From NCBI GenBank assembly GCA_035710515.1, contig DASTDE010000001.1, positions 186,001 to 250,000 of the forward strand: a stretch of DNA of 64,000 nt, given 5' to 3'. A program made the translations under genes and the position numbers. Position 1 is the first letter of the stretch, and each line of letters begins with the position of its first letter. This DNA is from Candidatus Rubrimentiphilum sp. Its GTDB lineage: Bacteria; Vulcanimicrobiota; Vulcanimicrobiia; Vulcanimicrobiales; Vulcanimicrobiaceae. The notes beneath the pieces were generated by a model. That model was not told the DNA's origin. It ran no database searches and saw only the letters and a program-made list of their open reading frames with translations. Of this stretch, positions 50,304-53,545 are shown piece after piece.

Positions 50304-51785
50304 GTGGACCAATCTAAGACTCCGTACTTTCAAGCGCTGCTCGATTATGTCGACGCCGGCGTGATTCCGTTTCACACGCCGGGCCACAAGCAAGGCATCG
50401 GCATGGATCTCGCGTTCCGCGAATTCGTCGGCGACAATCTGTGCGCGATCGACTTGACGCCGATGCCTGGCATCGACGATCTGTTGCAGCCCACCGAGTC
50501 GCTGCTCGAAGCGCAGCAACTGGCCGCCGAAGCTTACGGCGCCGATCGCACGTACTTCTTGATCAACGGCTCGACCAGCGGCAACCAAGCCATGATGATG
50601 GCCGCAGTCAACCCCGGCGACAAGATCGCCGTGCCGCGCAACTCGCACAAATCCATGCTGGGCGGGCTGGTGATGAGCGGCGCCGACCCGGTCTACATGC
50701 AGCCGGTCGTCGATGAAGCGCTGCACATGGACCACTGCGTTACGCCCGAGACGGTCGCGGAAACGTTGCGCGAACATCCGGACGTCAAAGCCGTCTACAT
50801 CGTCACGCCGACCTACTACGGCGTAGCCGCCGACATTAAAGCGATCGTGAAGGTCGCGCGCGGCGCCGGCAAACTAGTGCTGGTGGATGAAGCCTGGGGC
50901 CCGCATTTTCACTTTCATCCCGGGCTGCCGCTTTCGGCCACGGCCGCCAAAGCCGACTTGGTGGTCAACTCGACGCACAAGATGCTCTCCGCGTTCTCGC
51001 AGTGCGCGATGCTGCACCAAATCGGCCCGCGGGTACATGTGGACCGGCTAGAAGGCGTGCTGAAGATGTTTCTGTCCACATCGCCCAACCTGCCGATGAT
51101 CGCCTCGCTGGACGTTGCCCGCAAGCAGATGGCGATGGACGGCGTCGAGTTGCTCACCCGGACGATCGAGCTGGCGCAAGAGACGCGCAAGCGGCTAAAC
51201 GCGATCCCGGGCGTCTACTGTTTCGGCGATGAGCTGAAGGGCCGGCCCGGCATCTTCGATCTCGATCCCACCAAAGTCGCGATCACGGTCAAGGATCTCG
51301 GCTACACGGGTTACGAGGCCTCGGCGATTCTGCGCCGCCGGTACAACGTGCAAGTGGAGCTCGCCGATCTCTTCAATGTTGTCGCACTCTTTACGATCGG
51401 GACGTCCCAAGAGGCCGCCGACCGGCTCGTGCAAGGCGTGGCCGAAATGGCACGCGAGGATCGGCCTGTCGACATCTTCTCGCCCTCAGGCATCCTGGAG
51501 CGCCGCCTAAAGACCGGCAGTTACAAACTGCCGAAGATTCCGCCGATGCGCATGCTGCCTCGCGACGCGTTCTTGGCGCCAACTGAAGCCGTGCGCTTCA
51601 AAGCGAGCAAAGGACGCATCTGCGCCGAGACGATCTCGCCCTATCCGCCGGGCATTCCCGTGATTTCGCCGGGCGAAGAAGTCACCGACGAAATTATCGA
51701 CTACCTCTCGTTGGAGATCAAAGCCGGCGTCCGGATGCAAGGCCCGTATGACCGCGAGCTCAAGCGCATCCGCGTCGTTAAATGA
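50304..51785 (+). CDS. Orn/Lys/Arg decarboxylase (PLP-dependent)
   Basis: 493 residues from GTG 50304, with GGGAGGGAGAAG upstream as ribosome-binding region. The fold type I decarboxylase motifs are IPFHTPGHKQGIG at the start, LVLVDEAWGPHFHFHP and VNSTHKMLSAFSQCAML with the PLP lysine. Length fits the small biodegradative/biosynthetic arginine-lysine decarboxylase group without the wing domain. The product (agmatine, cadaverine or putrescine) cannot be decided. With SpeD, SpeE and MtnP elsewhere in the window it suggests polyamine synthesis. A 140-base gap precedes it. Confidence 0.93.
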   Translation: MDQSKTPYFQALLDYVDAGVIPFHTPGHKQGIGMDLAFREFVGDNLCAIDLTPMPGIDDLLQPTESLLEAQQLAAEAYGADRTYFLINGSTSGNQAMMMAAVNPGDKIAVPRNSHKSMLGGLVMSGADPVYMQPVVDEALHMDHCVTPETVAETLREHPDVKAVYIVTPTYYGVAADIKAIVKVARGAGKLVLVDEAWGPHFHFHPGLPLSATAAKADLVVNSTHKMLSAFSQCAMLHQIGPRVHVDRLEGVLKMFLSTSPNLPMIASLDVARKQMAMDGVELLTRTIELAQETRKRLNAIPGVYCFGDELKGRPGIFDLDPTKVAITVKDLGYTGYEASAILRRRYNVQVELADLFNVVALFTIGTSQEAADRLVQGVAEMAREDRPVDIFSPSGILERRLKTGSYKLPKIPPMRMLPRDAFLAPTEAVRFKASKGRICAETISPYPPGIPVISPGEEVTDEIIDYLSLEIKAGVRMQGPYDRELKRIRVVK

Positions 51786-51790
51786 GTAGA

Positions 51791-51953
51791 AAGCGATTGG
51801 CGATGGGCCTATTCCCCAAAACCGCTGGCAAAATTACCTCCTGAAATTTTGCCGCTTGACTGCTTTCTCGAGATAACAAAGTTTTGAAGTCGACATCCTG
51901 TCGAGCTCGAGAAAGTCAGACATTTCGGGGAACAGGCCCACCGCCAATCGCTT
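51791..51953 (-). ncRNA. Long nested palindrome, candidate structured RNA or MITE-like element
   Basis: Outer arms 51791-51817 and 51927-51953 are complementary at 25 of 27 positions. The two exceptions are A opposite C on the plus strand but G-U pairs in a minus-strand RNA. Inside are hairpin GGCAAAATT/AATTTTGCC (51827-51853, loop on minus strand UCAGGAGGU) and a 13-base stem (51857-51872 with 51906-51918). That stem encloses TCGACA-GGA-TGTCGA (51890-51904 on the minus strand). The two loops display GGA, like CsrA/RsmA targets. It lies between the decarboxylase stop and the R3H ATPase. Its transcription is unproven. Confidence 0.55.
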
Positions 51954-52015: not shown

Positions 52016-53545
52016 TTGGCCGTTAAAGCCGACTCTATGGCTTCCAACTGGGAGCTGACGCAACTCCTCGACATCTTCCCTCTCCCGATAAGACAATCGT
52101 TAGTTCGTCTTCCCAATCTCGAGAGCATGATCGAGGTTGTGCTCGATCTTGGGCGTCCGCCCGAGGCGCGTTTCGAAGACGACTTCGTCTATTTGTCGGA
52201 GACGCCGGTTTCGACCGAAGACATCGCGCACGTTTGCTCGCGTCTCTCGGCTTTCGGTGCCGACAATCGCGCCGGAATCGAGCAGACGCTGCATCGCATC
52301 AGCGCCATCCGCAATCGCACCGGGAAGATCGTCGGTTTGACGTGCCGCGTAGGGCGCGCAGTCTACGGAACGATCGATATTCTGCTGGACATCCTGCGCA
52401 GCGGCAAGTCCATCTGTTTGCTGGGCCGTCCCGGCGTGGGCAAAACCACGATGTTACGCGAATGCGCGCGCGTGCTTTCGGAAGATCGCAAGCGCGTCGT
52501 GATCGTTGACACTTCGAATGAAATTGCCGGCGACAGCGACATCCCTCATCCCGGAATCGGCACCGCGCGGCGCATGCAAGTCACCGATCCGGCGCTGCAG
52601 CACGCGGTGATGATCGAAGCGGTCGAAAATCACATGCCGCAGGTGGTCGTCATTGACGAAATCGGCACGTCGGCTGAAGCTGAAGCCGCGCGGACGATTG
52701 CCGAACGCGGCGTGGAGCTGATCGGCACCGCGCACGGCCAGACGCTGGAAAACCTCTTGATGAACCCGACGCTGACCGACTTGATGGGCGGCATCGGGGC
52801 GGTGACGCTCTCGGACGAAGAAGCCCGCCGCCGCGGCACGCGCAAAACGGTCCTCGAGCGGAAGGCGCCTCCGACGTTCGACGTCATTGTCGAGATTCAC
52901 GACCGCGACCGCCTGGCGATCCACAAGAATGTGGCCGACGTCGTGGACGCACTGCTGCGCGGCTATCAGCCGCAGCCCGAGATCCGTCAACGGACCGCCG
53001 CGGGCGTGGCGATCGTGCAGGAAGCGGATACGGAGTCCATGCCGCACATCGACATGACTTCCGGCTATGACGTCCCCGACGGGGATCGCGAAAAACCGCT
53101 GATGATCTTCCCCTACGGCGTATCGCGCAACAAGATCGAGCGCGCCGTGCACAACCTGCGCGTGAACGCCTCGATCGCGCGCAAGTGGGACGATGCCGAC
53201 GTCGTTCTCACGCTGAAGGCGCTCGAACGCAAAGAACAGCCGAGGCTTAAGCAGATCGCTTCGGAAAATATTCCGATCTACGCAATCAAGACGAACACGA
53301 CGACGCAGATTCAGAGCTGTCTGAAAGACGTCTTTAACTTGCCTTCGATCGACACCGAAGAGATCGCCTTGCGTGAGGCGGAGGAAGCGATCTACCAGGT
53401 GTTACTCGACAGCCAAGCGGCCGAGCTTTCACCGCAAACGTCGTACGTTCGCCGGATGCAGCATCAGCTAGCTGAAAAATACCGGTTGCAATCGCGCAGC
53501 ACGGGATTGGAGCCGAATCGAAGGGTCCGGATATATAAGGCGTAA
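52016..53545 (+). CDS. R3H-domain AAA ATPase (ycf45/SpoIIIAA-like)
   Basis: 509 residues from TTG 52016. The ATPase part has Walker A GRPGVGKTTMLRECARVL (about residue 140) and Walker B MPQVVVIDEIGTSAEAEAA. EIAGDSDIPHPGIGTARRM between them is typical of the cyanobacterial/plastid ycf45 and SpoIIIAA families. A C-terminal R3H domain (YVRRMQHQLAEKYRLQSRSTG, read in parts) binds single-stranded nucleic acid. The function is not established. A GGACAGG run precedes the start. Confidence 0.88.
   Translation: MAVKADSMASNWELTQLLDIFPLPIRQSLVRLPNLESMIEVVLDLGRPPEARFEDDFVYLSETPVSTEDIAHVCSRLSAFGADNRAGIEQTLHRISAIRNRTGKIVGLTCRVGRAVYGTIDILLDILRSGKSICLLGRPGVGKTTMLRECARVLSEDRKRVVIVDTSNEIAGDSDIPHPGIGTARRMQVTDPALQHAVMIEAVENHMPQVVVIDEIGTSAEAEAARTIAERGVELIGTAHGQTLENLLMNPTLTDLMGGIGAVTLSDEEARRRGTRKTVLERKAPPTFDVIVEIHDRDRLAIHKNVADVVDALLRGYQPQPEIRQRTAAGVAIVQEADTESMPHIDMTSGYDVPDGDREKPLMIFPYGVSRNKIERAVHNLRVNASIARKWDDADVVLTLKALERKEQPRLKQIASENIPIYAIKTNTTTQIQSCLKDVFNLPSIDTEEIALREAEEAIYQVLLDSQAAELSPQTSYVRRMQHQLAEKYRLQSRSTGLEPNRRVRIYKA

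Follow-up and report, generated by a model that had tools for sequence, protein, structure and literature searches.

The question raised by this locus is what kind of element is represented by a 163-base nested palindrome lying between two genes, at positions 51791 to 51953 of the 64-kb stretch of DNA analyzed here (the window). The original prediction read RNA-level selection and CsrA-like GGA loops on its minus strand, with a protein-sequestering sRNA, a translation-regulating RNA and a MITE as the candidates. The palindrome and its strand-specific fold are borne out by the present analysis, while the CsrA interpretation is unlikely. The locus is one copy of a repeat family that had not been catalogued before, whose short, folded, non-coding members lie scattered behind genes of the soil bacterial phylum Eremiobacterota, and the most likely interpretation is that these are mobile elements departing from both MITEs and REPs.

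The palindrome in the window

The palindrome is the best inverted repeat of the 64-kb window, and the only one with arms of at least 18 nt at 90% complementarity. Its features and those of its surroundings are as follows.

50304 to 51785, plus strand: upstream neighbor, a gene of the Orn/Lys/Arg decarboxylase family, stop codon 5 nt from the arm
51791 to 51821, no strand assigned: P1 outer arm with copy-specific sequence (3' arm of the minus-strand structure)
51822 to 51922, minus strand: shared core of about 100 nt; identity with the copy at G000:C1:836081 about 94-97%
51827 to 51853, minus strand: P4 hairpin, apex CAGGAGG, with GGA at 51839-51841
51860 to 51919, minus strand: P2 stem, CTGCTTTCTCGAG / CTCGAGAAAGtCAG with one bulged base, enclosing P3 and a CUUCAAAACUUUGUUAU segment
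51890 to 51904, minus strand: P3 hairpin, UCGACA-GGA-UGUCGA, with GGA at 51896-51898
51923 to 51953, no strand assigned: P1 outer arm (5' arm of the minus-strand structure), complement of 51791 to 51821
52016 to 53545, plus strand: downstream neighbor, an AAA ATPase with an R3H domain (SpoIIIAA-like)

Each P1 arm comprises 31 nt, forming 28 Watson-Crick and three G-U pairs on the minus strand, and the same three positions are A-C on the plus strand. The two differences originally described within 27-nt arms are exactly of this kind, G-U on the minus strand and mismatches on the plus. The minus strand folds at -95.4 kcal/mol (z = -9.7), a value equaled by none of 200 shuffles, and the plus strand at -82.0 kcal/mol (z = -8.5). 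The loops first described, UCGACA-GGA-UGUCGA and UCAGGAGGU, with ACCUCCU on the plus strand, are all present. Neither a promoter-like or terminator-like site on the minus strand nor a T-run terminator was found at this copy.

Distribution and consensus structure of the family

By covariance model the host genome (G000) contains exactly four copies. The three beyond the window copy bring a repetitive element into play, as the original prediction had contemplated, though not one present in many near-identical copies. Relatives within the host genus carry one to nine copies each, and about 215 copies are distributed over one family of Candidatus Eremiobacterota, in 52 of its 99 genomes and 20 of its 38 genera. 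The element is about 165 bp long, non-coding and multi-copy, reaching 28 copies in G012 and 24 in its sister species G063, and its distribution is patchy, with about half of the 99 genomes lacking any copy. Genomes outside the family were searched by BLAST, and the named relatives bearing the element are Candidatus Eremiobacterota MAGs; matches of a pattern scan outside Eremiobacterota were discarded as chance, none of them having a covariance-model match. Rfam covariance models gave no match up to E = 1, and no copies were found by exact pattern in viral contigs.

A model built from 37 copies and applied to 100 loci returned 106 matches, of which 101 were kept once duplicates and false matches had been removed. 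These copies share a three-way junction composed of the outer stem P1, a branched P2/P3 arm and the hairpin P4. Although fitting the alignment to the structure somewhat inflates the pairing and covariation figures, standard pairs make up 95.4% of pair cells, falling to 35-48% when the partner is slid by one to three columns, and changes on both sides occur at 59 of the 60 pairs. The covariation, for which the original prediction had suggested a search in relatives, is strong. One-sided changes are almost absent from P2 and P3. The exposed GGA loops are likewise kept family-wide, with GGA capping P3 in 98 copies, P4 in 88 and both in 85 of the 101. In most copies the P3 loop is either a triloop, GGA, or a tetraloop, NGGA. 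The Shine-Dalgarno/anti-Shine-Dalgarno loop, by contrast, is no feature of the family: other P4 loops read AUGGAC, CGA (12 copies) and others.

The constraint on the minus strand proposed for the window copy extends to the whole set. On the GGA strand the P1 stems contain 164 G-U against 42 A-C pairs (p = 3e-18, under a pairing score neutral between G-T and A-C, with copies that are not all independent), and copy by copy 62 favor G-U and 10 favor A-C. Where both neighboring genes are transcribed in the opposite sense the ratio is still 62:15, and the asymmetry is therefore intrinsic to the element and not a property of host mRNA. Folding of RNA or of single-stranded DNA could each be the cause, as G-T is the milder mismatch in DNA too.

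Shared cores and unshared arms

The conservation of the core does not extend to the arms, which have a median length of 36 bp. Copies at different sites can have cores that are 96-100% identical, yet their arms match at 0.50-0.64, the random level being 0.56 +/- 0.08. The arms of the window copy and of the copy at G000:C1:836081 are unrelated, as are those of L120 and L132, which lie at different sites with cores 100% identical. Copies at the same site in sister species, as judged from shared flanks, mostly keep their arms, with identities of 0.75-1.00 (core/arm identity 1.00/1.00 for L116/L129, 0.99/0.89 for L112/L126, 0.99/0.86 for L013/L101, 0.94/0.82 for L036/L043 and 0.99/0.75 for L032/L108). 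Arm evolution is thus too slow to explain the unrelated arms found between sites. The exceptions, L011/L017 and L002/L007, are same-site copies with differing arms, and indicate that re-insertion or arm replacement occurs.

The arms of the window copy have no match elsewhere in their own genome, those of 20 copies in G012 none elsewhere in G012, and comparison of arms with their own flanks within 400 bp gave no match beyond control. Free hairpins that might act as arm donors are almost absent, a single one being found in 192 kb of flanks and belonging to another repeat family. At same-site copies, P1 has accumulated 41 two-sided and 31 one-sided changes. Between L117 and L231, copies from sister species, about five clustered positions differ on both arms simultaneously, as though one arm had been copied onto the other.

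Placement and possible turnover of copies

A simple ORF heuristic was used to call genes. By these calls, 109 of the 142 stop codons that face an element are no more than 40 nt from the arm edge, most of them within 25, and neighboring genes are convergent, tandem or divergent in 46, 44 and 2 cases at the element against 8, 48 and 9 among the gene pairs of the window (p = 1e-6). REPs display the same preference, lying between convergent or tandem genes and often directly behind stop codons (PMC3733652, PMC12306157). Several sites are occupied in more than one species, including the ends of nuoD, moaA and other genes. Members of two genera carry an element at the 3' end of nuoD (L011, L017, L014), the arms being unrelated between the two congeners, and this position is possibly an insertion hotspot. 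TAG is commoner as the stop codon of genes abutting the element, where it accounts for 63 of 110, than of other genes, where it accounts for 52 of 169 (p = 1e-5).

Orthologous sites that lack the element are also found. The window site contains neither core nor arms in G001, G003, G004 and G006, and in G063 both are absent from the L121 site. G063 has no element at the L106 site but retains one copy of the outermost arm sequence. In G005, the window-copy site behind the decarboxylase gene (L053) carries a different, shorter GC-rich hairpin, GGCGGGCGCG CTA CGCGCCCGCC. Flank identity makes G000 the outgroup of its genus, so the empty sites in other members could be deletions. The core of the window copy is nearest to a second copy within the same genome, which argues for late arrival, or for gene conversion.

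The core may also change direction in place. At one site in two sister species (L111/L234) it is inverted between homologous arms, the outcome that recombination across inverted repeats would give, and its orientation differs between species at two further sites (L010, L015/L042 and L036, L043/L025).

A mobile element or a fixed structure

The interpretation that we favor, with moderate confidence, is that the palindrome belongs to a new family of non-autonomous mobile elements, with a REP- or MITE-like lifestyle, that act through their strand-specific fold. The multiple copies, patchy distribution, covarying pairs, strand bias and empty sites described earlier all support it. The copied unit would be the core of about 100 nt, folding on one strand (the minus strand in the window) into P2, P3 and P4, with two GGA-tipped hairpins and with P1 closing the structure; a trans-acting factor would presumably recognize this fold, as single-stranded DNA or as RNA. 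New copies would survive directly behind stop codons, mostly where the flanking genes are convergent or tandem, and the palindromic arms would arise at or after insertion, site by site, rather than being carried along with the core. The fold, its covariation and strand asymmetry, the shared cores with unshared arms, the placement and the presence or absence at orthologous sites are observed directly, whereas the mobilizing factor, the kind of molecule that folds, the order of events and the source of the arms are inferred. A more specific form of the proposal, that the folded core alone is copied and that each insertion becomes flanked by a long inverted repeat, new and near-perfect, is tentative and rather doubtful, and we know of no palindrome-making insertion mechanism of such a kind.

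No target-site duplication was detected, the direct-repeat score outside the arms being 4.34 against 4.32 for shuffled pairing, and no mobilizing enzyme was found among the Y1/RAYT transposases and reverse transcriptases of the 99 genomes. Y1/RAYT transposases occur in only four of these, and in none of G000 to G006, G012 and G063; reverse transcriptases occur in 12, and in none of the host genus, G012 and G063. Both enzymes were rejected as mobilizers on account of this absence from the host genus and the copy-richest genomes. Several observations could also be read against mobility: ectopic gene conversion between old, fixed copies could mimic movement of cores, the outermost arm sequence left at the L106 site in G063 could be the remnant of a deletion, and the multi-species sites, together with the two-sided changes in P1, could mean a host function. 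The main uncertainty lies between two histories, one in which cores move and are given fresh arms, and one in which long-standing, fixed hairpins trade cores through gene conversion.

In an alternative that we regard as unlikely, the palindrome is a cis-acting 3'-end element, serving as a terminator (possibly bidirectional), a roadblock or an mRNA stabilizer downstream of stop codons, and owes its spread by recombination to its usefulness, with cores homogenized by gene conversion between arms that are old and site-specific. The proximity to stop codons, the skew in neighbor orientation, the retention of sites across species and the pairing preserved by two-sided changes would all be expected of such an element. 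However, similar placement would also result from the purging of insertions in promoters, and the core flips at the three sets of orthologous sites listed above, the G-U asymmetry tracks the core and not the gene, the window copy lacks a T-run terminator, and about half of the genomes manage without the element. A different relationship between core and arms, which we hold to be distinctly improbable, is that cores insert into the loops of long hairpins already present behind genes. Group IIC introns and some insertion sequences target hairpins and offer a precedent, the unique, palindromic arms would be accounted for, and a small hairpin does occupy the window-copy site in G005; yet free long hairpins are very rare in the flanks, none exists in the 64-kb window, and the empty sites of G001, G003, G004, G006 and G063 show no such hairpin.

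The first possibility listed in the original prediction, here a family of sRNAs sequestering CsrA/RsmA whose copies would each present two GGA hairpins to a single CsrA dimer, fares worst and appears very improbable. GGA does occupy both apices in most copies, and the search for csrA in the host genome was successful, but the gene is present in 42 of 52 element-bearing and 39 of 47 element-free genomes (Fisher p = 0.80). The gene went undetected in G063 (93% complete, 24 copies), G076 (90%, six copies) and G015 (97%, one copy), and in both genomes of genus g10. The SELEX consensus for CsrA, RUACARGGAUGU, is found mainly in short hairpins with a six-nt loop (PMC7652899); ACARGGAUGU occurs in none of the 101 copies, with ACAGGATGT, one nt shorter, in 43, and the P3 triloop or tetraloop differs from the usual six-nt loop (PMC7652899), as do the 12 P4 loops that read CGA from a GGA apex. 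It is possible that the GGA loops bind, as RNA, a partner other than CsrA.

Relation to known systems

Under the favored interpretation of a mobile element, the closest comparisons are with MITEs and REPs. MITEs are similarly non-coding, palindromic and dispersed, at 50-500 bp (PMC10969869), but the terminal inverted repeats of the present element are not common to its copies and no target duplication is seen, so that the MITE originally listed as a candidate stands as a mobile element and not as a classical MITE. RAYT-mobilized REP/BIME sequences are also short extragenic palindromes present in many copies behind stop codons in convergent and tandem gaps (PMC3733652, PMC12306157). They differ in being 14-40 nt long and sharing a consensus, many of them tagged GTAG or CGTC, whereas the element is about 165 nt, nested, with a conserved center and unique arms, in a genus that, like the copy-richest genomes, has no Y1 transposase. 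Neither a conserved GTAG/CGTC tag nor a shared short stem was found, and arm ends differ between copies.

Sponge RNAs such as CsrB, CsrC and RsmX/Y/Z also expose GGA in hairpins and occur in several copies per genome, but the element lacks their SELEX consensus, an association with csrA and a conserved flanking promoter, the last because arms differ between sites. Integron attC sites are strand-specific folds with covarying stems behind stop codons, as is the element, but attC conserves its ends and varies its middle, while the element does the reverse. Retron msr-msd and other RT-associated RNAs are structured and closed by a long inverted repeat, which the element shares; the difference is that no reverse transcriptase exists in any genome of the host genus or in the copy-rich G012 and G063.

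The family thus adds a large set of structured repeats, without an Rfam entry, to a mostly uncultured phylum, and its combination of a conserved center, copy-unique palindromic ends, a strand-specific fold and no known mobilizing enzyme falls outside the definitions of REP and MITE. If the arms are truly made at insertion, they would represent a new way of inserting DNA; if instead cores move between fixed hairpins, the family would be a clear example of concerted evolution among intergenic structures.

Compound and altered copies

A few loci depart from a single intact copy. L156 holds two elements in opposite orientation (1301-1454 and 1480-1628), 25 nt apart. L034 (about 1001-1116), L041 (about 893-1075) and L042 (about 629-811) carry an unrelated interspersed repeat (CCTGAGC..TCGAAGG) where the element otherwise has its small AAAAC-UUU-GUUUU hairpin; this repeat is also found free in L091 as a hairpin with 32-bp arms.
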